Positions 873 through 27,062 of a stretch of DNA of 36,942 nt are shown piece after piece; within the stretch, counting starts at the first letter, position 1, and each line of letters starts with the position of its first letter. The notes beneath the pieces were generated by a model that saw nothing but the letters and a program-made list of their open reading frames with translations, did not search any database and was not told the origin of the DNA. Source of the DNA: a virus; the IMG/VR virus record IMGVR_UViG_3300046167_000324, positions 1 to 36,942 of that record; one strand, given 5' to 3'. The translations under genes were made by a program, and so were the position numbers.

Positions 873-3800
873 ATGGCAGATACATATACAACCAATCTAA
901 ACTTAACAAAACCAGAACCAGGTGCAGCAGAGGATACCTGGGGTATTTCGCTTAACGCTGACTTAGACTCTCTTGATGCAATTTTTAAAGCAGATGGTAC
1001 TGGTAGTAGCATTGGTCTTAATGTTGGATCAGGAAAAACTTTAGCAGTTGGTGGAACGCTAAATGTCACTGGTACATTTTCTTTAGGAGGTACAGCAATT
1101 ACCGCAACTGCTACTGAATTAAATTATGTAGATGGTGTAACAGGTAGCATACAAACACAACTAGGCACAAAAATAGAAAATAGTGATGATGTCACTTTAG
1201 GTACTATCAACTCTGGTGCAATTACCTCTACTGGCAATTCACAAATGGCCAACTTGGTTGTTACTGGGGATCTAACAGTACAAGGCACTACAACAACTGT
1301 AAACACAGATGATCTAAACGTAAAAGACAAAAACATTACCCTAAACTATTCAACAGGTGATTCATCTGCTTCAGCTAATGGTGCAGGTATTACCATTCAA
1401 GATGCTGTAAGTGTAGGTAATGATGCGACTATTCTTTGGAATACTAATTTTGATAATTTTGATTTTTCACACACTATAAGAATTCCAGACAGTCAAAAGG
1501 TAGAGTTTGGTGCTGATGCAGATTTACAAATTTACCATGAGTCTGGAAACAACCATAGTGTCATAAAAGAAACAGGCACAGGTAACTTAAAAATCCAAGC
1601 AGCCAATATTGAAATGCAGATTCCAAATGGCACACAAAATTATTTACAAGCTATCAATGGTGGTGCAGTAACCCTATACAATAATGGTTCACCAAAAATC
1701 GCAACCACTAGCACAGGCATAGACGTAACAGGCACAACTGTAACTGACTCTTTAACAGTAAGTGATGGCACGAATGGAATAATGCAATTAGGTGCATCAA
1801 ACACAAGAAGAATAGCAGGTGGTGCAGACTATGGTGGTATTCGTTATTATTCTGATAATGACCATATTTTATATACAAATAATGTTCAAAGATTAGCAAT
1901 TAACTCAGGCGGAGACATATCCTTCTATGACGACACAGGCTCAACTCAAGGTTTATTTTGGGATGCTAGTGCTGAGAGATTAGGTTTGGGTACAACTTCG
2001 CCAAGTTCATATAATTCAAGAGGTAGAAATTTAGTTGTAAATTCAGCTTCAGGTAACTCAGGTATTTCTATTGTTGCTAGTGATACAACAAGTTCTAGTT
2101 CTGTTATGTTTGCAGATGGTACAGGCGGTACAGCAGGGTATAGAGGTTATTTGGAATACAATCACACTAGCGATGCTTTACTTATAGGTACAGCAGGTTC
2201 TGAAAGAGCTAGGTTTGATAGTAGTGGTCTGTTTCTAGTTGGTAAAACGAGTGGAGATTTTGGGACTCAAGGTAGTAATCTTGTTGGGGGTGGGCATTTT
2301 GTAAAAGATGGAAACACAGCACTTTACCTCAATCGTTTATCAAGTGATGGCAGTATCTTAGCGTTCTACAAAGATAGCTCTTTGAAAGGAAGTATTGGTA
2401 CTTACGGGGGTACTTTCTATGTGAGTGGTGCAGGTACATTGGGCGGTTTCATGTTTAATGGAAGCATTGAGCCTACGCGTGGTGCTACAAGGATAGACGG
2501 GGCACATGACTTAGGCTCTGCATCATATCGCTTCAAAGACCTCTACCTTTCAGGAACAGCTAATGTTGGTGGTGTTACATCTACAGGAGCTATATCAGCA
2601 GAAGATAATATCTACCTAACTGATGCAGGAACTACAAGAGGTAGAATTGAACTTAACGCAAGTGATAGGGATGATTTAGATATTGTAGCCGTATCTTTAA
2701 GTTCAAATCTAAAATTCTTTACGCAAAATACAGAAGTTGGGCGTTTTGATGCGTCAGGACGATTCTTGGTGGGTACTACTAATATTATTCCAGGCATAAG
2801 TAATACAGATGCAGGTGTATCTTTATCTGCCTCTCTTGGGGTTTTTGCTTCTCGTGCTAACGAAGCACCTATCAACCTATCTAGAAACTCAAGTAACGGA
2901 GACATTGCTTTATTTAGAAAAGATGGAACAACCATTGGAAGCATTGGTGTAGGCAGTTCTAATAAAATGACCATTATTGGTACAAATGCTAACCTACAAT
3001 TAGGTGCAAGTAATGCAGCTCTACTTAACTTAGATACAAATAAGTTCTACCCACAGACTGATAACTCAGTAGACTTAGGTTTTAGCTCATCTGCAAATAG
3101 ATTCAAAGACCTCTACCTTTCAGGAACAGCTAATGTTGGAACTTTAAAAGTAATTAGAACAGATAACACTACTCAGTATGGTATTTTTGGACAAGACAGC
3201 TCTGGTGGATATTTAACACAACATAGAAATAACTCATCACTTTATGAAAACTTTAGATTTTTAGCATCTAACACTTCAGGAACAGTTGAAAGAGCTAGAA
3301 TAGACTCATCAGGTAATGTTGGCATAGGGAAAACACCATCAGGAGCAAAACTTGATGTTACTACACCAACAACAGGACAACTAGCTGCAAGATTTGCAAA
3401 TACACATAGTTCAGGCTCTTATGGTATATCAGTAGCAGCAGGAGATGACTCAGGAAATTATACTGCATCCTTTACTGACAAATCAGGCAATTCGTTAATG
3501 TATATTAGGGGAGATGGAAATATTGGAATCGGCACAACTTCGCCAAATGCATTAGCTGATTTGCATGTTGCAGATACTACAGATGCAAGAATATGGTTAG
3601 ATGCAACTTCAGGAAATACACTAGAGCTATATGCAGGTTCAGGCGTAGGATTATTTAATAGGTCTAATAGTTTTTTAAACTTTGGAACTGATAATGTAGA
3701 ACGCATGAGAATAGACTCATCAGGTAACCTGTTAGTAGGTACTACTACATCTCAACCAGGAACAAAATTACAAGTAGCAGGTGTTTTTGATGTTTGGTCA

Positions 3801-6404
3801 AGTACCAATACTTTATTAAGGTCAAGGCATGATGGAACAAGAGGCATTATTGAAACCTTTACAGGTGGTGCATACGCCAATACTGCAATAAATCCATCAG
3901 GTGGCAACGTTGGTATCGGAACAACTTCACCTACTCATTTACTCCACGTTAATGGAACAACAGCTACTATTCTTGCTCAATCAACTAATGCAGGTTCAAA
4001 TGCTTCTATTTGGTTTAACTCAAACGTAGGTGGTACTCAAGCAAACAGATGGGAAGTTGGTACAAATATATCAGCAGGTTCTTCTTTTGAAGTTTACGAC
4101 AGAGTTAATGGTGCTTCAAGAATGGTTATTAACAGTTCAGGAAATGTTGGCATAGGCGCAACCTCACCAAGCGTTAAATTAGATGTAAGAACTTCGGCAA
4201 GTGCTGCTGCGGCATTTTTTACTTCTACAGGCGACCAAGTACCTGTATCTATAATTAGTGGACACAATTCAAACATATCTACTCTTGGATTCAAAGGTCT
4301 TAACTCATCAACTACTTATGGTGTTAGAGTGGGCGCACATACTAATGACTTTGTGGCATTTACGTCAAACACAGAAAGAATGCGTATTGATTCTTCAGGT
4401 CGTGTTGGAATTGGTACGACTGCACCAAGTGAAAAACTACATGTTCTTGGTAACACTAAAATAACTGGCACTATCACTGTTGGTGCAAGTCATACCATTG
4501 GTGATGTAAGTTCTGTTGATGACAACTTCCTTATTGCATCAGCAGATAATAAAGACTTAACTATTAAAGCAGGGGTTGATTCTAGCACCCTAAGACTTAA
4601 AACAACCAATACAGCACTAACTATTAATCCTGAAGGTTTGGTAACAATAGAAGAAGAAACAACGATTAATGATGATCTTACTATTAATGCAACCACACCA
4701 AGTCTTAACCTTATTGATACTAATAACAACTCAGACTATGCGGTAAACAATGCAAATGGTGTATTCCAGATATTTGATAAGACCAATGATGTAAGTAGGT
4801 TAAGTGTTACATCCGCAGGAAACGTTGGAATTGGGATGACACCTACTACCAATAACATTAGTAAATCAATAAGTTTAGTCAATGGTGGTAGTATTTTTGG
4901 ATATGGGAATGGTACATATATTACAGGAAACAGTAACTATAATGGAGCATGGAATACTGTAGCAACTGGTGTTGATTCTAGGATGGTACTAGATGGAAAT
5001 GTTATTTTTTCAAGGTCTACATCAGCTTCAGCAGGTTCGGCAGGAGCAGCTACCGAATCCATGAGAATAGACTCTTCAGGTAATGTTGGAATAGGTACAA
5101 CTTCTCCTGATAATAAATTAGACATTAAAGGGACTGTAGGTTTTGAAGCAACAAACAGTACAAACAAATGGTTGGCTTACACTTATACAGATAATACATT
5201 TAGACTTAATTACAATGGTGCAGGTGCAGATGAGATAACTGTGACGTCATCAGGTAATGTTGGTATAGGAACTGATTCGCCAAGTACAAAACTTGAAGTA
5301 AATGGGTATGGTAAATTTACCAATAGTGATAATTCACCAAGACTTCATTTAACTGGTGGTAGAGATTATTTTCTTACAGCAACATCTAGCGGTCTTTTTG
5401 GACTTTATGATAACACTGCTAGTTCTTATAGGTTAGCTGTAGATACCTCAGGCAACATTGGAATTGGAGACACAGCACCTCAGGATTATTTAGAGATTAA
5501 TGGTTCAGGAAAAGGTTTGGGTGGTTTAACTATTTCAAACTCTTCAGCATCTCATGCAGCTTTAAGTTTTGCAAGAAGCTCTACTGCTACAGCAAGAATA
5601 TACGCAAATGAACCTGCTGCTTTACATACAAGCGGACTTAGATTCCAAACAAGTGATGCTAGTGGCGGTGTTCCAAACTTAGTCACAGCGATGTTCATTG
5701 ACGAATATCAAAAAATTGGAATTGGGACGACTGCACCCGAAACACCTTTACATGTTTCAACAGCTAAGTCATCTGTAACAGATAGCGTACTAACTTTACA
5801 AGACACTACAGAAACTTTTGGTAAAATGATAGAGTTTGTGGGTGCAGGTTCTACAGATTGTAGAGGTATTATAGGTTTCCAAGAGCCTCAGGGTAATGCA
5901 CCAGAACTTTACATAGCTAATGGAGGAACTGAGTCTGCTGGAAATGGAGTAGGGTTAGCTTTCTGGAGCTACATAACTGTAAATAGAATAATACCGTGTG
6001 ATAATTTAGGAGCTTTACGAGACAATGCAATTGATTTGGGTTCATCAAGTGCAAGGTTTGATGACATCTATGCAACTAACGGAACTATACAAACTTCTGA
6101 TGAAAACGAAAAACAAGACATACAAGCATTAACAGATGCAGAGCAAAGGGTTGCTACAGCATGTAAAGGTTTGATAAGAAGATTCAGATGGAAAGATGCA
6201 GTAGCAGAAAAAGGCGATGATGCTAGATTACACTTCGGAGTTATAGCTCAAGACTTACAAGATGCATTTACAGCAGAAGGCCTTGATGCAGGTGACTATG
6301 GTATGTTTATATCACAGACCTGGGAAGATGATGACGGAGTAGAGCAAACTAGGCTCGGAGTAAGGTATAATGAACTCCTAGCTTTCATAATAACAACTTT
6401 ATAG
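873..6404 (+). CDS. Large tail fibre with repeated GIGTTSP motifs and a C-terminal S74 self-cleaving chaperone
   Basis: An 1843-residue fibre, about 15% of the genome. Residues 1-60 (MADTYTTNLNLTKPEPGAAEDTWG) match the start of the second fibre at 6884 and are the likely virion anchor. The shaft holds about 14 copies of a motif like RIDSSGNVGIGTTSPxxKLDV, typical of trimeric phage fibres that wrap as beta-solenoids or beta-helices. From Ser1742 (SDENEKQDIQ) to the end is an intramolecular chaperone of the Peptidase_S74 type, with HFGVIAQDLQDAF and RYNELLAFII as expected. In this family the domain drives trimerisation and then cuts itself off just before the Ser. The fibre probably binds the host surface. 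The exact cut site is inferred from the family. Confidence 0.93.
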   Translation: MADTYTTNLNLTKPEPGAAEDTWGISLNADLDSLDAIFKADGTGSSIGLNVGSGKTLAVGGTLNVTGTFSLGGTAITATATELNYVDGVTGSIQTQLGTKIENSDDVTLGTINSGAITSTGNSQMANLVVTGDLTVQGTTTTVNTDDLNVKDKNITLNYSTGDSSASANGAGITIQDAVSVGNDATILWNTNFDNFDFSHTIRIPDSQKVEFGADADLQIYHESGNNHSVIKETGTGNLKIQAANIEMQIPNGTQNYLQAINGGAVTLYNNGSPKIATTSTGIDVTGTTVTDSLTVSDGTNGIMQLGASNTRRIAGGADYGGIRYYSDNDHILYTNNVQRLAINSGGDISFYDDTGSTQGLFWDASAERLGLGTTSPSSYNSRGRNLVVNSASGNSGISIVASDTTSSSSVMFADGTGGTAGYRGYLEYNHTSDALLIGTAGSERARFDSSGLFLVGKTSGDFGTQGSNLVGGGHFVKDGNTALYLNRLSSDGSILAFYKDSSLKGSIGTYGGTFYVSGAGTLGGFMFNGSIEPTRGATRIDGAHDLGSASYRFKDLYLSGTANVGGVTSTGAISAEDNIYLTDAGTTRGRIELNASDRDDLDIVAVSLSSNLKFFTQNTEVGRFDASGRFLVGTTNIIPGISNTDAGVSLSASLGVFASRANEAPINLSRNSSNGDIALFRKDGTTIGSIGVGSSNKMTIIGTNANLQLGASNAALLNLDTNKFYPQTDNSVDLGFSSSANRFKDLYLSGTANVGTLKVIRTDNTTQYGIFGQDSSGGYLTQHRNNSSLYENFRFLASNTSGTVERARIDSSGNVGIGKTPSGAKLDVTTPTTGQLAARFANTHSSGSYGISVAAGDDSGNYTASFTDKSGNSLMYIRGDGNIGIGTTSPNALADLHVADTTDARIWLDATSGNTLELYAGSGVGLFNRSNSFLNFGTDNVERMRIDSSGNLLVGTTTSQPGTKLQVAGVFDVWSSTNTLLRSRHDGTRGIIETFTGGAYANTAINPSGGNVGIGTTSPTHLLHVNGTTATILAQSTNAGSNASIWFNSNVGGTQANRWEVGTNISAGSSFEVYDRVNGASRMVINSSGNVGIGATSPSVKLDVRTSASAAAAFFTSTGDQVPVSIISGHNSNISTLGFKGLNSSTTYGVRVGAHTNDFVAFTSNTERMRIDSSGRVGIGTTAPSEKLHVLGNTKITGTITVGASHTIGDVSSVDDNFLIASADNKDLTIKAGVDSSTLRLKTTNTALTINPEGLVTIEEETTINDDLTINATTPSLNLIDTNNNSDYAVNNANGVFQIFDKTNDVSRLSVTSAGNVGIGMTPTTNNISKSISLVNGGSIFGYGNGTYITGNSNYNGAWNTVATGVDSRMVLDGNVIFSRSTSASAGSAGAATESMRIDSSGNVGIGTTSPDNKLDIKGTVGFEATNSTNKWLAYTYTDNTFRLNYNGAGADEITVTSSGNVGIGTDSPSTKLEVNGYGKFTNSDNSPRLHLTGGRDYFLTATSSGLFGLYDNTASSYRLAVDTSGNIGIGDTAPQDYLEINGSGKGLGGLTISNSSASHAALSFARSSTATARIYANEPAALHTSGLRFQTSDASGGVPNLVTAMFIDEYQKIGIGTTAPETPLHVSTAKSSVTDSVLTLQDTTETFGKMIEFVGAGSTDCRGIIGFQEPQGNAPELYIANGGTESAGNGVGLAFWSYITVNRIIPCDNLGALRDNAIDLGSSSARFDDIYATNGTIQTSDENEKQDIQALTDAEQRVATACKGLIRRFRWKDAVAEKGDDARLHFGVIAQDLQDAFTAEGLDAGDYGMFISQTWEDDDGVEQTRLGVRYNELLAFIITTL
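2532..2569 (+). repeat. Copy 1 of a 38-bp perfect direct repeat inside the fibre gene
   Basis: Identical over 38 bases to 3102-3139 and in the same reading frame (encodes FKDLYLSGTANVG). The copies are 570 bp (190 codons) apart, so recombination between them would delete or duplicate shaft sequence without breaking the frame. Confidence 0.95.
3102..3139 (+). repeat. Copy 2 of the 38-bp perfect direct repeat inside the fibre gene
   Basis: Second copy of the repeat at 2532-2569. Identity stops abruptly on both sides, although the surrounding protein repeats are similar. That suggests recent gene conversion or duplication rather than general codon similarity. Confidence 0.95.
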
Positions 6405-9657: not shown

Positions 9658-10018
9658 TGAAAGTTGGCAAGAGGAATGGATAAGAACCAAGCCTCTTATA
9701 GCAAAAGCGGTTAAACATCAAGATGCCTATACAATTGATGACATAGAAGATAAAATAAGAGAAGGAATATTCCTACTTTGGGCTAGCAACAATGCAGCAT
9801 TTGTAACAGAGTTTGTAGTATTTCCACAGCACACCGCAATGAACTTACTCTTTTGTGGTGGTGACTATAAAGAGTTAGAGGCGATGTTGCCACACATAGA
9901 AGAGTACGCAAAGAAATGTGGAGTCAAAAGGCTTTACGGTGGTGGCAGAAAAGGATGGACAAGAAAGCTTAAACATCTTGGATTTGTAACAGAACATTTA
10001 ATTAGAAAAGATTTATGA
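9641..10018 (+). CDS. GNAT-like small virion-associated protein, 125 aa
   Basis: Reads as a compact GNAT-fold acyltransferase-like protein: an N-terminal helix (WIRTKPLIAKAVKHQ), a strand pair (GIFLLWASNNAAFVTEFVVFPQH, AMNLLFCGGD), then EYAKKCGVKRLYGGGRKGWTRKLKHLGF, which resembles the end of the GNAT fold. In other podoviruses such proteins sit among the internal virion genes (the T7 gp13-like group). No clear acetyl-CoA loop (Q/RxxGxG/A) is visible, so catalytic activity is doubtful. Overlaps both neighbours by a few bases. Confidence 0.6.
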   Translation: MQKAINESWQEEWIRTKPLIAKAVKHQDAYTIDDIEDKIREGIFLLWASNNAAFVTEFVVFPQHTAMNLLFCGGDYKELEAMLPHIEEYAKKCGVKRLYGGGRKGWTRKLKHLGFVTEHLIRKDL

Positions 10019-11148
10019 GTAAAGGAAAAACAAAAACAGAAGCCACGGCAACGCTACCAGATTGGCAGAAAGATGCCTATCAAGACTATCTAGCTAGAGC
10101 GCAAGAAGCAGCCGACATGCCATTCCAAGGTTATACTGGAGATAGGTTTGCTGGTTTATCTCCAGAAGAGATGCAAATGGGTGCTGGTATACAGGGTTTG
10201 TTTGGTAGTGCATTTGGTGGATTTGATCCCACAAGACAATTACAGCAATTGGCTGGTCAACAAGCTCCACAAATGGGAGATGTGCAATCTTTATTAGATG
10301 TAGATATTGGTGCATATCAATCACCTTACCAACAACAAGTTATAGACCTAACAGAGCAAGACTTTGCTAGACGTAGAGATTTACAACAACAGCAAGCGCA
10401 AGATGTAGCAATGCGATCTGGTGCGTTTGGTGGCTCAAGAGGAACTATATACGAGCAAGAAGCATTAAGACCTTTACAAGAACAAGAAGCCAGGACAGTT
10501 GCTGGTTTACGACAGTCAGGATTTGAGCAAGCGCAAAGAGCTGCTGAGTCTGACATAGCAAGACAACAACAGATGGCCATGCTCGCCCCCGAGCTGGAGC
10601 TAAGAAGCAGACAACAACAAGCTGGACTCCTGGGTGGTTTATTAGGCGGACAAACGCAAGCACTAGGATTACTTGGTGGTTACGGTGGTTTGGCCAGAGG
10701 ACTAGAGCAACAAGGCAGAGACTTTGACTTCAGCGAGTTTATGAGAGAGCAACAATACCCAGCATATCAATTAGGATTGTTTGGACAGGGTATACAAGGT
10801 ATGCCAGCTTTAATTGGTAGAAACACAGTTGAAGAAAAATTTGGATCACCATTGGGAGCATTAGGTGATGCAACAAAATTAGCTGGAGCTTTGGCATCTG
10901 GTGGATATTTTAACCCAGCAGCACCAGCAGCACCATCAGACGAAAGATTAAAAGAAAACATAAAGAAAATTGGTAAGTCTAAAAATGGACACAACCTATA
11001 TACATGGGACTGGAATGACAGGGCCAAAGAACTTGGTGTGAACAGTCCAACAACAGGTGTAATAGCACAAGAAATAATAAAATATATGCCAGAGGCGGTT
11101 ACTAAACACGCTGATGGTTATTACATGGTTAATTACGGAGCTTTGTAA
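10015..11148 (+). CDS. Gln/Gly-rich virion protein with a C-terminal S74 chaperone, 377 aa
   Basis: Residues 1-300 are rich in Gln, Gly, Ala and Arg with helical, amphipathic stretches (QQQAQDVAMRSGAFGGSRG, LRQSGFEQAQRAAESDIARQ). This resembles marine podovirus internal or tail-tube-associated proteins. From Ser308 (SDERLKENIKKIGKSKNGH) to the end is a second Peptidase_S74-type intramolecular chaperone, with NLYTWDWND and TGVIAQEIIKYMPEAV. Self-cleavage before Ser308 is predicted. Here the chaperone is on a non-fibre protein that also lacks the solenoid motifs. The gene overlaps the previous stop by 4 bases. Confidence 0.85.
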   Translation: MSKGKTKTEATATLPDWQKDAYQDYLARAQEAADMPFQGYTGDRFAGLSPEEMQMGAGIQGLFGSAFGGFDPTRQLQQLAGQQAPQMGDVQSLLDVDIGAYQSPYQQQVIDLTEQDFARRRDLQQQQAQDVAMRSGAFGGSRGTIYEQEALRPLQEQEARTVAGLRQSGFEQAQRAAESDIARQQQMAMLAPELELRSRQQQAGLLGGLLGGQTQALGLLGGYGGLARGLEQQGRDFDFSEFMREQQYPAYQLGLFGQGIQGMPALIGRNTVEEKFGSPLGALGDATKLAGALASGGYFNPAAPAAPSDERLKENIKKIGKSKNGHNLYTWDWNDRAKELGVNSPTTGVIAQEIIKYMPEAVTKHADGYYMVNYGAL

Positions 11149-14881: not shown

Positions 14882-15085
14882 ATGAGTAATAGTGAAAAAA
14901 AGTTTATTGATACTAAGCAACTCGCTGAACGCTGGATGAGATCACCTAGAACAATAGAAAACTGGAGAAATAAAAAGATGGGGCCAGACTATGTAAAGTT
15001 GGCTGGAAAAGTTGTCTATGACATGGAAGAGATCTTAAAGGTAGAGGAAGAGTCAAAGGTATCAAATGAAGCACGCACTACTTAG
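14882..15085 (+). CDS. Excisionase/MerR-type helix-turn-helix protein, 67 aa
   Basis: FIDTKQLAERWMRSPRTIENWRNKKMGPDYVKLAGKVVYDMEEI is a complete small winged helix of the HTH_17 / excisionase type: helix LAERW, turn, recognition helix RTIENWRN, wing with GPDYVKLAGKVVY. There is no integrase in the window, so a transcriptional regulator at the head of the early operon is more likely than a true excisionase. It is the first gene after the early promoter and overlaps the next gene by 20 bases. Confidence 0.85.
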   Translation: MSNSEKKFIDTKQLAERWMRSPRTIENWRNKKMGPDYVKLAGKVVYDMEEILKVEEESKVSNEARTT

Positions 15086-17398: not shown

Positions 17399-17774
17399 TT
17401 TTGACAACAACGACAGGCCAACGCTGTGTGCATATTGTAAAACACCAGCGGGGCCTTTATTAAAGAAAGACAAAGAACATTGGCTTGGAGCATGCTGTAT
17501 GGCTCATTTAAAAAAACTAGGTGAAGGCGAACGCCTCCCTAACAAGGCGCAACTTAATGACATTGGTACTGAGTACGCTATAGCATCCACCAAAAATTTA
17601 TACAAAAAATTATTGATTGACAACAAAGGCGAACCCTTGCATGAATGGGAAAGGGACGATAGAAAAAAAATATTTGTTTCAATCATTAGAGAATATCTAA
17701 ACTGGGCCAACGCCAGGGCCAGGGAAGATGACGAAAGGCTTATAAATGGATCTAAAAAAATACTGCAAAGATAA
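17382..17774 (+). CDS. Zinc-finger-like replication-operon protein, 130 aa
   Basis: CAYC at residues 16-19 and a second pair, ACCMAH, at 37-42 form a probable zinc site. The rest is helical and charged (KNLYKKLLIDNKGEPLHEWERDDRKKIFVSIIREYLNW). It overlaps the SSB-like gene by 17 bases and the primase-helicase by 29 bases. A zinc-finger domain just before a Toprim primase that lacks an obvious zinc domain of its own could supply template recognition. That role is inference. Confidence 0.7.
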   Translation: MTHHFNFDNNDRPTLCAYCKTPAGPLLKKDKEHWLGACCMAHLKKLGEGERLPNKAQLNDIGTEYAIASTKNLYKKLLIDNKGEPLHEWERDDRKKIFVSIIREYLNWANARAREDDERLINGSKKILQR

Positions 17775-19578
17775 CAATATAATACCAGAACTTAAAAATA
17801 CAAATACACATAAAAAAACAACAAACGACTTAATACATGAGATGCAGGCACAAGGTTTGCAAATCAATCACCTGGAATCAACAGGTAAAATTGTTAGGGT
17901 GCCAGTCGCTCTCCCTGGAATGAAACCAGACCTAGGCGGTTCTAAGTCTGGTTATTATGTTGTTAATGAATTACACGGTCACTACTTCGCAACATTTGGT
18001 AATTGGAAAACAGGTTTTGAGGGTAAGTGGAGTTCAGTTGATTCTAATACTTTAAGCCAGGTGGACAGAGAAGCTTTACATAAACAAATGCAAGAAGCAT
18101 CTGAGCAAGCGAAAATTGATAGAAAAATTAAGCAAGATGAGGTGGCAGAAGAGATACGGGAAAAATTTAATAAATGCAACGATGTTGTCGAGCATGAGTA
18201 TCTCACAAATAAAAAGGTTAAAAACTATGGGTTGAAACAATCTAACGGTAGTTTAATTGTTCCCGTGTATTCTACTACAGGTGCCATCAGATCTATACAG
18301 TACATAGATAAAAAAGGGGGTAAAAAGTTTGCCTCCGCATCAGAAATTAAAGGTAATGTTTTTCTTATTGGAATTACATTTAACGAATTAGCTAATTGTG
18401 AAAGATTGGTAGTAGCTGAAGGTTACTCAACATCCGCAACAATATATGAAGCTACCCAGATTCCCGTGGCTTGCGTATTTAGTGCCAATTTTACATTGGA
18501 TGCAGTCTCTAAATTGCGCAAGTTAACGGGTGCTAGAATTATTTTAGCCCTGGATCACGATGATAACGGCGTGGGTGAAAAGAAAGCCCAGGAATGTGCA
18601 GCAGCAATACCCAACGTGGCCGTGCGTCTGCCCAGCGAGCGTGGCGATTACAATGACTTATATTTAAAGCATGGTTTAGATAAAGTGAAAGCTGAGTTGA
18701 TGGAACACAAGCTTGGTATACAAAAGTATGCTATTCGTAACCTGGTAGGCACACCAGAACCACAAAAGTTTTTAGTAGAGGGATTGATACCAATGGGTAA
18801 ACCAGGACTCCTGGCAGCGTCTGGTGGAGTTGGTAAATCATTGAGTGTAATCCAATTGGCATTGTGCATAGCTTGTGGTGGAAGATGGTGGGGAAAAGAT
18901 GTTACTGAGCGTGGTAACTCTATTATATTTGCCAGTGAAGATGATCTTCCAGAGATCCACAGAAGACTAGAACTCCTGGATCCCCTGGGAAAAAGATTCC
19001 AATCAGAGCATGAGGTTTATATCTTTCCGATTCCAGAGCAGAAAGAACCAATGATTTTATTGAGGGAAGAAGGTGTCACGGATCTTGCAATGGAATTAGT
19101 GGAAGAAATTAAATCAATACCAAATATTAAATTGGTTTGTTTTGATCCGCTCCAGGCATTTACCACTGGTAATGTTTCTAGTAGTAACGAGGTTGGCCAG
19201 TTGTGGGGATCTTACTGTGCAAACATAAGCGCAAGGTTACAGTGTTGCACGCTAACCGTACATCATTTAAACAAACAAGGTTTAACCGTAGATTCAGATG
19301 ACCAGATGGTTCAGAGAACCAGCGTGAGGGGCGCCTCGTCACTCGTCGATTCGCAGAGGTTCTGCCTCACAATGGCCCTGGCAAGTGCAGAGGATTGTGA
19401 AAGGATTTGTGAAGAGCAACATGTACCCTACGACAGAATGGCGGTGGTAAGAGGCGCACTTGTAAAATCCAACAGCGGAGGCGTAGACTATTCTGCAAAA
19501 ACATTATTTAGACGCAACGGTGTTTTAGAACCATTAAATGAACCGCTAGATACCAGTAATTTATATGACAATTTTTAG
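17746..19578 (+). CDS. Primase-helicase: Toprim plus RepA/RecA-fold ATPase, 610 aa
   Basis: Residues about 150-300 hold a Toprim primase domain: acidic Glu225 in LVVAEGYSTSATIYEA and Asp270/Asp272 in ALDHDDNGVG. Residues about 340-560 hold a RepA/AAA_25-type hexameric helicase: Walker A ASGGVGKS at 358-365, the SEDD motif at 397-400, Walker B LVCFDPLQAF at 463-472, and a sensor with paired His (LTVHHLNKQG). No N-terminal CHC2 zinc finger is visible in this protein; the preceding gene may provide one. It probably unwinds and primes at the replication fork started at the origin near 19755. Confidence 0.92.
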   Translation: MDLKKYCKDNNIIPELKNTNTHKKTTNDLIHEMQAQGLQINHLESTGKIVRVPVALPGMKPDLGGSKSGYYVVNELHGHYFATFGNWKTGFEGKWSSVDSNTLSQVDREALHKQMQEASEQAKIDRKIKQDEVAEEIREKFNKCNDVVEHEYLTNKKVKNYGLKQSNGSLIVPVYSTTGAIRSIQYIDKKGGKKFASASEIKGNVFLIGITFNELANCERLVVAEGYSTSATIYEATQIPVACVFSANFTLDAVSKLRKLTGARIILALDHDDNGVGEKKAQECAAAIPNVAVRLPSERGDYNDLYLKHGLDKVKAELMEHKLGIQKYAIRNLVGTPEPQKFLVEGLIPMGKPGLLAASGGVGKSLSVIQLALCIACGGRWWGKDVTERGNSIIFASEDDLPEIHRRLELLDPLGKRFQSEHEVYIFPIPEQKEPMILLREEGVTDLAMELVEEIKSIPNIKLVCFDPLQAFTTGNVSSSNEVGQLWGSYCANISARLQCCTLTVHHLNKQGLTVDSDDQMVQRTSVRGASSLVDSQRFCLTMALASAEDCERICEEQHVPYDRMAVVRGALVKSNSGGVDYSAKTLFRRNGVLEPLNEPLDTSNLYDNF

Positions 19579-19587
19579 GAGAAAATT

Positions 19588-19749
19588 ATGAACTGTTGGC
19601 AATGTAACCAAAAATTAATTTGGGGTGGCGATCATACAGGCGAAGATTATGACAATGAAGATTACGAAATTGTAACTAATCTATCTTGCTCTAAATGCGA
19701 TGCCTTGGTTCTCGTATATCACCAAAAAAAACAATTTAATACAGAATAA
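19588..19749 (+). CDS. Small zinc-ribbon protein, 53 aa
   Basis: Begins MNCWQCNQKLIWGGDHTGED and has a second CxxC pair in LSCSKCDALVLVYHQ, so one four-cysteine zinc ribbon. This type of tiny protein is common in phage early operons. It has a ribosome binding site (AGGAGAAAATT) overlapping the end of the primase-helicase gene. It ends 5 bases before the first iteron. Confidence 0.75.
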   Translation: MNCWQCNQKLIWGGDHTGEDYDNEDYEIVTNLSCSKCDALVLVYHQKKQFNTE

Positions 19750-19754
19750 CCATA

Positions 19755-19816
19755 GGGAGTGTTAGGGACATAGTATGGGAGTGTTAGGGACATACCTTGA
19801 CCAAGATAGGGACATA
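19755..19816 (+). repeat. Three iterons at 22-bp spacing: candidate replication origin
   Basis: The 10-mer TAGGGACATA occurs at 19763-19772, 19785-19794 and 19807-19816, each exactly 22 bp (about two helical turns) from the last. The first two copies extend to an identical 18-mer, GGGAGTGTTAGGGACATA, at 19755-19772 and 19777-19794. Direct repeats on one face of the helix, next to an AT-rich palindrome and directly upstream of a winged-helix protein gene, are the layout of an iteron-type theta origin. Confidence 0.75.
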
Positions 19817-19843
19817 ACTCTAGTAAGAGGCTCCCATATATCC

Positions 19844-19863
19844 ATATCATACTCATATGATAT
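19844..19863. repeat. AT-rich 8-bp inverted repeat in the origin region
   Basis: ATATCATA, a CTCA loop and TATGATAT: a perfect 8-bp palindrome with a 4-base centre inside an AT-rich stretch (ATATATCCATATCAT). It could be the strand-opening element or a dimer binding site for the protein encoded just downstream. Confidence 0.7.
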
Positions 19864-19864
19864 A

Positions 19865-19896
19865 GGAAGCGAACCCCTTGAGGGGGTTCAGCTTCC
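19865..19896 (+). other. Long GC-rich hairpin before the initiator gene
   Basis: GGAAGCGAACCCC at 19865-19877 pairs with GGGGTTC-A-GCTTCC at 19883-19896. This makes a 13-bp stem with one bulged A and a 5-base loop. No T-run follows on either strand, so it is not a standard terminator. It could act at the origin, or in the leader RNA of the gene at 19920. Confidence 0.75.
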
Positions 19897-19919
19897 AGGG
19901 AAAAAAGAGAAGTAAAGAA

Positions 19920-20351
19920 ATGAAAAGATTTAAAACAATAGACAAGGACCACTGGTGGATCACGGCACACACGAGCGAGCGGGAGCGAGCGGGAGTCTTT
20001 GTCCCGTTAGAGCTAGCCAGGAGAGACGGAGACTTCTCCAGGGTGAGAGCAGTGGTATGGGCTTGGTACAGGCGCGAGTGCGGGCGGACGGATCTATCCG
20101 TGAGTGCGAAGCTTATTATGTGGGCGCTATGCGAGCGGTGGAGATATGAAACCTGGAGCAGCCATGATGCAATTAGTTATTATGCAAAGATGACTGGTGT
20201 TAATAGAAAAACATCTGGTAGAGCTATGACTGAGTTGATTGAGAAAGAGGTGGTGTGGTGTGTCCTGGAAGGTGAGCAGAAAAGATTAAGGAAATCACAA
20301 CCTGGTGGTAAGAAGCATTTTTTGTTAGTGGGCCTGGTAGATCTATTGTAG
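19920..20351 (+). CDS. Winged-helix replication-initiator candidate, 143 aa
   Basis: Residues about 57-115 (DLSVSAKLIMWALCERWRYE then SYYAKMTGVNRKTSGRAMTELIEKEVVW) form a winged helix of the type found in the N-terminal domain of lambda-O-like and RepA-like initiators: helix, turn, recognition helix NRKTSGRAM, wing. It lies immediately downstream of the iterons, as origin-binding initiators often do, and in the same operon as the primase-helicase. I chose the ATG at 19920 over the upstream TTG at 19878 because the latter lies in the hairpin. Codon use is unusually GC-rich here and includes a tandem 10-bp repeat GAGCGAGCGG at 19973-19992. A transcriptional regulator is the alternative. Confidence 0.72.
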   Translation: MKRFKTIDKDHWWITAHTSERERAGVFVPLELARRDGDFSRVRAVVWAWYRRECGRTDLSVSAKLIMWALCERWRYETWSSHDAISYYAKMTGVNRKTSGRAMTELIEKEVVWCVLEGEQKRLRKSQPGGKKHFLLVGLVDLL

Positions 20352-21758: not shown

Positions 21759-22040
21759 CTATCCTGGGTAAGCCATCAAAGTTCCAGCATCATAAGGGCA
21801 AGCTTCCCACCCAGCCTTATCTAAAATATTGCATATCTCTGGGGCTATCTCGTATCCAGCTTCCTCATAAATATCATAAAGAGGCAAGCCATCAATAGCC
21901 ATGCTATCTTCACTGCCTCTGAACCAGATGCCAGCCTTGTTTGGATCATCATAGTATTCACACAATGGCGTTGCCTTTGCTTTTGGATAGATCTTGTTGA
22001 TCTTGTTTATTAAAGTTTTCTCCTTCATTATTCTAGTCAT
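21759..22040 (-). CDS. Small acidic protein, 93 aa
   Basis: Unknown family. Contains INKIYPKAKATPLCEYYDDP, GIWFRGSEDSMAIDGLPLYDIY and ICNILDKAGWEACPYDAG. This resembles small phage proteins with an alpha/beta fold that appear in other marine phage early regions. The ATG at 22040 is preceded by GGAGGTAGCGTA, one of four identical junction sequences in this operon. An internal ATG (MKEKTL) is 12 bases further in but lacks that ribosome binding site. Confidence 0.72.
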   Translation of the reverse strand: MTRIMKEKTLINKINKIYPKAKATPLCEYYDDPNKAGIWFRGSEDSMAIDGLPLYDIYEEAGYEIAPEICNILDKAGWEACPYDAGTLMAYPG

Positions 22041-22219
22041 TACGCTACCTCCTTTATTACAATTTTAGCTTTTTTGTCACCGATTATTTTTCTTGCTCTG
22101 TTAATTGCTTTTCTGTCAGTACCACAATTCATGTTGTGAATTTGAATATAGTTGCCATGTTGAGGCAAGTCCTCAAAGTTAAACCAGCCATTGCCATGTG
22201 TTCTAATTACATATTCCAT
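22040..22219 (-). CDS. Small protein ending in EVA, 59 aa
   Basis: Encodes MEYVIRTHGNGWFNFEDLPQ then HGNYIQIHNMNCGTDRKAINRARKIIGDKKAKIVIKEVA. A beta-strand start and a basic helix are visible. Start and stop both fall in copies of the junction repeat GGAGGTAGCGTAATG, with the stop TAA overlapping the next ATG (TAATG). Function unknown. Confidence 0.68.
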   Translation of the reverse strand: MEYVIRTHGNGWFNFEDLPQHGNYIQIHNMNCGTDRKAINRARKIIGDKKAKIVIKEVA

Positions 22220-22503
22220 TACGCTACCTCCTTTTTATTGTGGCTTGGCCACATGCTTTGGTTGATAATCATATCAACTGTGTTTTTATCTAAACCTTGA
22301 TTAGTATTCCAGGCATTAATCTTTTCTTGGTTCCAATTCGCACAATCACCAATCTCAAGATCAACACAAGGATAATAACCACCCTCATAATCAACGACAG
22401 CAACAGTACCTGGTAAACCAATATCAGCTCCATCGTACAGCGCAACCCTCTTGCCTTCTGCTTTTTTCTTATCAACAAAGTGATTTATTTTATTAATATC
22501 CAT
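22219..22503 (-). CDS. Small protein of unknown function, 94 aa
   Basis: Encodes MDINKINHFVDKKKAEGKRV, then ALYDGADIGLPGTVAVVDYEGGYYPCVDLEIGDCANWNQEKINAWN and ends in KKEVA. The middle looks like a small beta-barrel (a SH3-like alternation of strands). It is bounded on both sides by the 15-base junction repeat. No family recognised. Confidence 0.72.
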   Translation of the reverse strand: MDINKINHFVDKKKAEGKRVALYDGADIGLPGTVAVVDYEGGYYPCVDLEIGDCANWNQEKINAWNTNQGLDKNTVDMIINQSMWPSHNKKEVA

Positions 22504-22673
22504 TACGCTACCTCCTCAAGTGCTTTTTTTAACAATTCTATTTTACCCTTCGTTATCAATCTCCAGTTCTTGTTGATGTATTTTTCAGGGTAGCCATTGG
22601 CCACAGCCTTATCTTGTTCAGCCATCAACCTTTCAAGATAATTTAATAATTGTTTTTTATCGTCTCTATCCAT
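22503..22673 (-). CDS. Small helical protein ending in EVA, 56 aa
   Basis: Encodes MDRDDKKQLLNYLERLMAEQ and a helical body ending in GKIELLKKALEEVA. I chose the ATG at 22673 rather than the upstream ATG at 22688, because the sequence between them (GGGAGGTAGCGTA) is the ribosome binding site and junction repeat used by the neighbouring genes. Function unknown. Confidence 0.68.
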   Translation of the reverse strand: MDRDDKKQLLNYLERLMAEQDKAVANGYPEKYINKNWRLITKGKIELLKKALEEVA

Positions 22674-22966
22674 TACGCTACCTCCCATGTTTTTTTGTAA
22701 GCCATCACATGTCTTTGTAAACCACCCTGGTTGTAGATTGGTTTATCAACCTCGGTCTGACAACCTAACATGTAAGGGTTGACATTCTGAACTCTTCCAT
22801 CTTCCAACTCAATAGTTACTGTTTTGTGGTAATACTCACAAGGCACAACCTTGGTAACAGTTCCCCAACCAGGTATGTTGGCCATGTCACCTTTGTAATA
22901 GATCTTGTCACCAGCATCAATGCCACCAACATATCTTTCATCGTTCCATTTGTGTTTATTAGTCAT
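22673..22966 (-). CDS. Small beta-rich protein, 97 aa
   Basis: Encodes MTNKHKWNDERYVGGIDAGD, then KIYYKGDMANIPGWGTVTKVVPCEYYHKTVTIELEDGRVQNVNPYMLG, and ends KTWEVA. The strand pattern GWGTVTKV...TVTIELEDGRVQNV suggests a small SH3- or Tudor-like barrel. The ATG at 22966 is preferred over the one at 22993 because AAGGAGG lies just upstream of it. It is the first gene after the internal leftward promoter. Confidence 0.72.
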   Translation of the reverse strand: MTNKHKWNDERYVGGIDAGDKIYYKGDMANIPGWGTVTKVVPCEYYHKTVTIELEDGRVQNVNPYMLGCQTEVDKPIYNQGGLQRHVMAYKKTWEVA

Positions 22967-25003: not shown

Positions 25004-25441
25004 ATGACAAATAAAATGCCAAAAAAACGAGGAAGGAAACCCATAAATATTGACCTGGAAAGGGTTGAATATCTGGCGTCTTTGAACATGGGAATCATGG
25101 ATATATGCCGTAGCCTGGGGATAGGATGGGACACGTTCAATAAACATAGAAACAAAAAAAACTCGGAATTAAAGGAGAGATTGGACTCAGGGAAAGCGCG
25201 AGGACTTCAGCTCGCCACGTCCAAGCTCATGGAAAAAATCCAGGACGGTGACTTCAACTCCATCCAGCTCTACCTCAAATCAGCTGACAGAGACACCTGG
25301 GCGGAAAAACAAACAGTTGAACATAATCTAAATTTAAGTGACGTACTCACGCAGGCTCGGGCGCGCGTGATAGATCACAAGCCAGGCAAACCCGAGCAGC
25401 TAATCAAGATCCCGCGCGAGAGCGAAGGCGCGAAGGAGTGA
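25004..25441 (+). CDS. terS: Terminase small subunit, 145 aa
   Basis: The N-terminus KKRGRKPINIDLERVEYLASLNMGIMDICRSLGIGWDTFNKHRNKK is a DNA-binding helix-turn-helix of the phage small-terminase type. A helical oligomerisation region follows (LQLATSKLMEKIQDGDFNSIQLYLKSADRDTWAEKQTVEHN), ending in a basic/acidic tail. It recognises the packaging site and feeds the large subunit encoded 88 bases downstream. An internal ATG at 25016 is an alternative start. The 3' end of the gene is strikingly GC-rich compared with the rest of the genome. Confidence 0.88.
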   Translation: MTNKMPKKRGRKPINIDLERVEYLASLNMGIMDICRSLGIGWDTFNKHRNKKNSELKERLDSGKARGLQLATSKLMEKIQDGDFNSIQLYLKSADRDTWAEKQTVEHNLNLSDVLTQARARVIDHKPGKPEQLIKIPRESEGAKE

Positions 25442-25529
25442 GCGTGCTAGCTAGCCCCCCCCCGTGTGTTTTTTCCTGGGCGCTTTATATAGAGAACTAC
25501 TGAACTAAAATTTTTTAATTTTTTTTAAT
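25442..25529 (+). other. Intergenic region between terS and terL with a GC palindrome, C9 tract and T-rich leader
   Basis: Contains GCTAGCTAGC (25446-25455, a 10-base palindrome), a run of nine C (25455-25463), and a T/A-rich leader directly before the terL ATG. There is no Shine-Dalgarno sequence. It may hold the packaging start site. No gene is visible. Confidence 0.5.
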
Positions 25530-27062
25530 ATGAAATATGGAATAAAACAAGAACGAGAACTGATGACCGAGCTATGGTCAGGACCAATTAAAGACAATCC
25601 AGTAAACTTTGTTAAGTATGTCTTCCCATGGGGACAGAAGGACACCCCCCTGGAAGAGTTTAAAGGACCAAGAAAGTGGCAAGAAAAAATTTTAATGGAA
25701 ATGGCGGTTCACATACAAAGAAACAATGTCCTGGATCTACCAGAGATGTTCAGGTTGGCAGTGGCATCTGGACGTGGTATTGGAAAGTCAGCTTTAGTTG
25801 CCTGGATCATTGTATGGATGTTATCAACCAGGTTGGGATCAACCATTATTGTTACCGCTAACACCGAACAACAGCTCAGATCAAGAACATGGGCAGAGCT
25901 AGGTAAGTGGCTTACGCTGTCTATAAACTCTCATTGGTTTACCAAGACTGCCACCACGATTAAACCAGCTCCCTGGTTTGAAGAGGCGCTCATTAACGAC
26001 CTCAAGATAGACACTGGTTACTACTACGCCCAGGCACAGCTCTGGAGCGAAGAGAATCCAGACGCCTTCGCGGGTATTCACTCCTCCTACGGAGTTTGCT
26101 TAATTATGGATGAGGCTTCTGGTATTCCCGCGCCCATCTACTCTGTCTCCGAGGGTTTCTTTTCAGAGCCTACAGCAAATAGATACTGGCTTACCTTCTC
26201 CAACCCGCGCCGAAACACTGGGCCATTCTACGACAGCTTCAACTCCGCGCGTGCGTTCTGGAAAAATGAACAGATAGACTCGCGCACCGTAGAAGGCACA
26301 GACCAAAAACTATTCCAAACCATGATTGAGCAGTACGGCGAAGATTCCACAGTCGCGCGCGTGGAGGTGATGGGCGAGTTTCCATCCGCGGATGATGATA
26401 CTGTAATACCAATGGGATTGGTTAAGTCAGCGATTGATAGGGATGTCTCGCTAACTGCTAACGCACCGATTATCTGGGGACTAGATGTAGCGCGATTCGG
26501 CGGTGATAACTCTGCGCTGTGTATACGCCAGGGAAACCATGTAATGAGTATCAAGTCATTTAAGTCTATGGATCTTATGCAATTGTGTGGTGTTGTTAAG
26601 AACCAGTACGATGAGTGTACGGCGATTGAACAACCACAAGAAATATTAATTGACGTTATAGGCCTGGGAGCGGGCGTGGTGGACAGGCTTGCGGAGCAGA
26701 ACCTGCCCGTGCGTGGGATCAATGTTTCAGAAGCGCCCTCTAGCAAAAAAAATTATTTAAACTTGCGTGCGGAATTATGGTTTGCAATTAAAGACTGGCT
26801 AACGCAACGTGATTGCAGACTGCCACACGATGACGAGCTAGTCGCAGAACTAGCAGCACCGCTTTATAAATACACTTCTACTGGTAAAATAAAAATAGAA
26901 TCCAAAGACGAAATGCGCAAGCGCGGAATTAAATCGCCCGACAAAGCAGATGCACTTGCATTGACCATGGCATCCTCCGCTGCAAGTTTTGGTGGAAGCA
27001 CTAGTTTTTTAGGTTATAATTTCAAAAAACCACTGAAGTCTAGGATAATCAGAATAGGATAA
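25530..27062 (+). CDS. terL: Terminase large subunit, 510 aa
   Basis: ATPase domain: Walker A ASGRGIGKSA at residues 79-88, Walker B CLIMDEAS at 190-197 with Asp194 and Glu195, and coupling motif TFSNP at 222-226. Nuclease domain: Asp319 in WGLDVARFGGDNSAL, a second acidic motif ILIDVIGLGAGVVD, and the last in SPDKADALALTMA near the C-terminus. The size is normal. It is the motor that translocates DNA into the prohead through the portal encoded next. The start codon has no Shine-Dalgarno sequence and is preceded by a T-rich leader, so translation may rely on ribosomal protein S1-type binding. Confidence 0.95.
   Translation: MKYGIKQERELMTELWSGPIKDNPVNFVKYVFPWGQKDTPLEEFKGPRKWQEKILMEMAVHIQRNNVLDLPEMFRLAVASGRGIGKSALVAWIIVWMLSTRLGSTIIVTANTEQQLRSRTWAELGKWLTLSINSHWFTKTATTIKPAPWFEEALINDLKIDTGYYYAQAQLWSEENPDAFAGIHSSYGVCLIMDEASGIPAPIYSVSEGFFSEPTANRYWLTFSNPRRNTGPFYDSFNSARAFWKNEQIDSRTVEGTDQKLFQTMIEQYGEDSTVARVEVMGEFPSADDDTVIPMGLVKSAIDRDVSLTANAPIIWGLDVARFGGDNSALCIRQGNHVMSIKSFKSMDLMQLCGVVKNQYDECTAIEQPQEILIDVIGLGAGVVDRLAEQNLPVRGINVSEAPSSKKNYLNLRAELWFAIKDWLTQRDCRLPHDDELVAELAAPLYKYTSTGKIKIESKDEMRKRGIKSPDKADALALTMASSAASFGGSTSFLGYNFKKPLKSRIIRIG

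Follow-up and report, generated by a model that had tools for sequence, protein, structure and literature searches.

Background

In bacteriophage lambda, gene O contains the iterons of the replication origin, and host DnaB, brought in via P, serves as the helicase. In the IncQ plasmid RSF1010, RepC binds the iterons of oriV, RepA unwinds the DNA and RepB' recognises the ssi hairpins by reading their base and 5' tail (PMC4234260, PMC4434180, PMC4538821, PMC6925257). The alpha protein of phage P4 unites in one polypeptide Toprim primase, helicase and winged-helix functions that act on repeats, while pRN1 has an origin stem-loop of about 100 nt beside its replication gene, kept in structure and not in sequence, with an AEP primase and no iterons (PMC4234260).

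The 36,942 bases analysed here (the window) make up an entire IMG/VR virus record. Its TerL stands at 36% to that of the podovirus epsilon15, its capsid protein shares 41.5% identity with its counterpart in Pelagibacter phage HTVC106P, and it also encodes a portal, a scaffold and a large tail fibre. The 1843-aa tail fibre (873-6404) is specified by a gene full of degenerate internal repeats, and a separate protein (10015-11148) carries a C-terminal Peptidase_S74 chaperone domain. A 15-nt block, GGAGGTAGCGTAATG, comprising a ribosome-binding site and start codon, occurs four times before successive small minus-strand genes at 22038-22699. No terminal overlap was found in the window or in contig 3300021378_000071, so that their ends give no sign of circularity, and a search for an end repeat likewise found none.

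A rightward replication operon runs from a DUF2800 exonuclease through a Sak4-type protein and a 610-aa primase-helicase to a last gene encoding a 143-aa protein. Between these last two genes lie a 53-aa gene and a non-coding gap, ending at the ATG at 19920, that bears a repeat array and two hairpins. The operon opens with a 67-aa HTH_17/excisionase-like protein (14882-15085; phrog_66, E 1.2e-6); no integrase was found in the record. Family searches of this record alone found no PolA (DNA polymerase A), tyrosine recombinase or resolvase. The features are as follows:

17746-19578, + strand: primase-helicase, 610 aa (Pfam: Toprim at about residues 221-310, RecA-like AAA_25 at 329-512)
19588-19749, + strand: gene for a 53-aa CxxC protein, between primase-helicase and iterons, like short pelagiphage ORFs
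19751-19772, + strand: iteron unit 1, core TAGGGACATA at 19763-19772
19773-19794, + strand: iteron unit 2, core at 19785-19794
19795-19816, + strand: iteron unit 3, core at 19807-19816
19817-19838, + strand: degenerate iteron unit 4, GGCTCCCATA at 19829-19838, in register and abutting the junction; register kept in relatives
19835-19845, + strand: conserved junction CATATATCCAT (consensus CAWATATCCRT, from the alignment of relatives)
19844-19863, no strand assigned: hairpin H1, ATATCATA-CTCA-TATGATAT, AT-rich, 8-bp arms, loop CTCA
19865-19896, no strand assigned: hairpin H2, GGAAGC.GAACCCC-TTGAG-GGGGTTC.A.GCTTCC, stems of 6 and 7 bp, loop TTGAG
19920-20351, + strand: winged-helix protein, 143 aa, proposed iteron-binding initiator
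25004-27062: terminase genes, about 5 kb from the array

Comparison with described origins

RSF1010 oriV, compared via its published descriptions (PMC4234260, PMC4434180, PMC4538821), is the closest functional parallel because of the RepA-like helicase encoded next to the phage array and the two structured hairpins after it. Both loci have iterons of about 20-22 bp, a separate initiator (in the phage, a candidate), a RepA-type helicase domain and neighbouring hairpins preceded by a short constant 5' tail, and presumably leave elongation to the host polymerase. The constant TATCC tail with a hairpin of unconstrained sequence after it recalls what RepB' reads in ssiA, which may be regarded as a parallel but not as homology. 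There are also differences. RSF1010 is a plasmid and the present element belongs to a phage; the phage primase is of the Toprim (DnaG) type and fused to the helicase, whereas RSF1010 has the AEP primase RepB'; ssiA and ssiB provide one hairpin per strand, recognised by the primase, and the two conserved hairpins of the phage lie in tandem and need not be one per strand; and no homology between the phage candidate initiator and initiators of plasmids was detected. By its primase class the locus falls outside the RSF1010 family.

The locus resembles the lambda and Stx-phage origins in having several iterons beside an AT-rich unwinding region, a putative DNA-binding initiator and no phage polymerase (PMC7466680). 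Unlike lambda, however, it has its array in a non-coding gap, a phage-supplied primase-helicase and structured hairpins after the array. With P4 it shares Toprim primase, helicase and winged-helix functions, here divided between a RecA-fold helicase-primase and a separate candidate initiator. It shares with pRN1 a stem-loop conserved in structure beside a replication gene, but differs from it in stem-loop length, in its iterons and in its primase.

The repeat array and the hairpins

Three exact copies of TAGGGACATA lie at a step of 22 bp, and an 18-mer, GGGAGTGTTAGGGACATA, is common to two of the repeat copies. No further copy with 0 or 1 mismatch occurs elsewhere in the window. Chance repeats were rejected as an explanation: the expected number of exact 10-mer triplets with equal spacing (lag 11-60) is about 5e-6, and none was found in 20 Markov genomes. 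The sole other triplet observed in the window, at 221, belongs to the 60-nt repeats of the first gene.

The 13 bp of H2 are divided between two stems by a single bulged A at 19890 on the + strand. Positions 19838-19905 fold as DNA with -19.2 kcal/mol (z -6.4). H2 occurs once per genome, adjoining the array, in the window and in the relatives searched with an H2 model; no convincing second copy was found elsewhere in the window, where the next best place has E 0.09. No intrinsic terminator was found in the region. A three-way junction, in which the window fold pairs TCC with a downstream GGG, was rejected, being absent in relatives such as L014.

The initial annotation had described most of these elements, and they stand: the three repeats at exact 22-bp steps, the 18-bp identity of two copies, the perfect AT-rich palindrome (H1), the 13-bp GC hairpin (H2, its 13 bp interrupted by the bulge), the winged-helix gene after them, the position at the end of the replication operon and the lack of an integrase. 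It overlooked the degenerate fourth unit, the conserved junction and the continuation of the element through both hairpins as one unit.

Conservation of the element and divergence of the repeats

Relatives were collected as IMG/VR homologues of the 143-aa protein, together with loci reached via the primase-helicase, and 101 distinct upstream sequences were aligned on the junction with TATCC[AG]T as anchor. In these sequences an array of 21-22-bp repeats ends at the near-invariant CAWATATCCRT, after which come H1, H2 and then the winged-helix gene. Outside the anchor, the junction has C at -4 and A at -3 in 100 sequences each and A at -1 in all. The AT-rich CATATATCC and the AT-rich hairpin abut the array in all relatives, as expected of an iteron origin, and the winged-helix gene is linked to the array in every one.

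The sequences fall into seven groups that follow the initiator protein tree, with these repeat cores:

Group A (window): TAGGGACATA
Group B: TTGGACATAACTATAGTA
Group C: TAGGGACATACTAGGG
Group D: GGACANNNTGTACC
Group E: GCGACAAAAGTGGTA
Group F: TTTAGGGACATACATGCGAAG
Group G: the inverted repeat TGTAGCNNNNCGCTACA

The repeat sequence thus differs between groups, but the period, that is, the fixed helical spacing of direct repeats typical of iteron origins, is kept in all seven. The autocorrelation peaks at 21 bp in F and in C, where the steps are 21 and then 22; the other five groups peak at 22 bp. Conservation of the repeats in homologues had been named beforehand as a test able to refute the idea of an iteron origin, and the idea survived it. 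In isolates with related capsids, the searched stretch of HTVC106P has no 22-bp repeats, and the H2 model matched none of three genomes at E 1.

The gap between primase-helicase and iterons is a single cargo position, occupied in the window by the 53-aa gene and in relatives by other genes or none. The genes found there differ in L145, L146, L159, L167 and L185, and the cargo in relatives, judged by eye, apparently includes two types of DNA methyltransferase.

The winged-helix protein

The 143-aa protein has a weak HTH_36 match, below the Pfam cut-off, and matches phrog_6643, 'replication initiation protein', with E 1.8e-4. Its predicted model is of moderate confidence (pLDDT 58.6, with most of the core at about 70-85), the core consisting of helices 61-72, 81-92 and 96-108 and strands 112-116 and 133-137. 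No match was obtained with Rep families of Pfam/NCBIfam or in a PDB sequence search with the initiator profile, and searches of 50,697 phage records, 72,556 plasmids and the GTDB genome contigs yielded no homologue. The two-winged-helix initiator of Rep_3/RepA iteron plasmids was considered and rejected: the protein has 143 residues, one predicted winged helix and no Rep_3 match.

Around the predicted recognition helix the sequence is KMTGVNRK in groups A, B and F, KMTAVNRK in C, KMIG(T/A)NRR in D, KMIGVSRR in E and KMIGVHRT in G. These changes track the changes in repeat sequence between groups.

The protein could instead be a transcriptional regulator, with the iterons serving only as its autoregulatory operator and replication starting elsewhere. 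The array does lie directly upstream of the winged-helix gene, and a PDB fold search returned generic winged-helix and regulator matches, although missing Rep families in that search prove nothing. Moreover, iteron initiators usually autoregulate too, so that operator and origin functions could coexist. However, no sigma70-like promoter was found in the region, and an operator leaves unexplained both the fixed linkage to the primase-helicase and the presence of two covarying hairpins and a junction in phase with the array. We consider it unlikely that the array is an operator only.

Covariation in the hairpins

H1 begins directly after TATCC and has perfect arms of at least 7 bp in 99 of the 101 sequences, compared with 0.6% of shuffles, although about 20 different arm sequences occur. 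Indeed L038, L041 and L042, whose initiators are near-identical, carry three different versions of H1, each self-complementary. In every group but E, H2 keeps an outer and an inner stem with a single unpaired purine between them, on the 3' side as read on the + strand; some group C rows are parsed without the bulge under neutral scoring and with it in another parse, and group E has an altered H2 with a variant stem. In a 19-sequence alignment of H2, 97.9% of cells are paired and 12 of the 13 pairs show double-sided changes; three one-sided cells probably belong to rows L195 and L035, which a shorter loop puts out of step with the named structure. None of 500 shuffles reached the H2 covariation score, and slid structures pair at 34-64%. 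Mapped on the initiator tree, which is poorly resolved, the arms changed at least 26 times in H1 and at least 21 times in H2. The number of apparent compensatory changes may be inflated by palindrome recombination or by template-switch correction or repair.

Might the hairpins act in RNA, be it in a leader at the 5' end of the winged-helix mRNA, in an antisense RNA or in a primer RNA, and control translation or copy number? The junction lies about 70-120 nt upstream of the winged-helix start codon across relatives, which would place the hairpins within a leader, and both also fold well as RNA. Yet the compensatory changes in the arms are almost free of G·T wobble, and no G-T pairs occur among the distinct hairpin variants of groups A-C, where the changed pairs of an RNA helix would usually tolerate their G-U equivalents. 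This absence favours DNA over RNA hairpins. In addition, the region matches no Rfam family or tRNA and has no promoter-like site, and a leader leaves the upstream repeats unexplained. An RNA function appears quite improbable. The comparison suggests that the hairpins keep only their shape, while iteron specificity and initiator diverge together.

An exchangeable replication module

The helicase half of the primase-helicase (residues 334-596) matches RSF1010 RepA (1g8y) with a phmmer E of 3.3e-9, which places it with the RepA family; in the other half Pfam finds Toprim_3 and no AEP primase of the RepB' kind. In each of 14 relatives checked, from groups C-G, the gene precedes the array, as it does in group A and B loci, and its co-occurrence with the initiator extends to identities of 53% and 54% in the two proteins. 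L130 is 94% identical to the window in TerL, 72% in the primase-helicase and 65% in the initiator, and its array differs; L195 is 91% identical in the exonuclease and 62% in the primase-helicase. Therefore primase-helicase, array and initiator behave as one exchangeable module.

Repeats and hairpins can also make up a site at which terminase or recombinase binds for packaging (pac/cos-like) or resolution, and 28 of 80 IMG/VR contigs end at most 1 kb downstream of the primase-helicase gene, more than in the following bins, but such a site is very improbable here, with terminase genes 5 kb off and an array that co-varies with the initiator, travels with the replication genes and differs in L130 despite the 94% identical TerL. 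The contig ends themselves may be genuine, or may come from assemblies that broke off at a variable site.

A proposed origin and its mode of action

Taken from sequence comparison and from the analogy set out above, 19751-19896 is probably a phage replication origin working like RSF1010 oriV. Its iteron type is well supported by the 21-22-bp period, the linkage to candidate initiator and primase-helicase, and the kept hairpins. To this extent the comparative evidence upholds the reading of the initial annotation; its two models did not hold, the lambda O-type layout being rejected with the array outside the initiator gene and the Rep_3 plasmid family for want of a match. The initial annotation had also called such an origin unexpected in a short-tailed phage with no integrase or lysogeny genes, but phages with iteron origins are known (lambda, Stx phages, P1 and P4); in the literature collection searched, no paper on iterons in podoviruses was found. 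The GC skew, suggested as a check, does turn near 20-21 kb, but this is not independent evidence because the turn coincides with the switch to minus-strand genes. As skew follows gene orientation, we rejected it as proof of an origin.

We propose that copies of the winged-helix protein bind the 22-bp iterons on one helix face, and that the bound protein strains or opens the AT-rich junction CATATATCC/H1. The primase-helicase, as its gene linkage and RepA homology suggest, would then load on the opened strands. H1, H2 or both would fold on single-stranded DNA and serve this enzyme as structure-specific loading or priming signals, a role suggested by their covariation, their Watson-Crick-only pairs and their constant 5' tail. 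Primers would be extended by the host DNA polymerase, since no phage polymerase was found.

More tentatively, these loci might represent a class of origin undescribed so far, in which two tandem DNA hairpins, under selection for shape rather than sequence, are read as single-strand initiation sites by a Toprim primase-RepA-like helicase, and the identity of the origin rests with an exchangeable iteron array and the winged-helix protein matched to it. If this is true, coexisting marine phages carry mutually incompatible (orthogonal) origins on one shared type of priming machine. An origin at 19751-19896 would also provide a defined start of replication for a large group of marine podophages that are uncultured. 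Its natural variants, in which iterons and initiator are matched and the hairpins keep their shape, offer candidate orthogonal origins and make it possible to test directly how iteron specificity evolves and what use primases of the DnaG type make of DNA hairpins.
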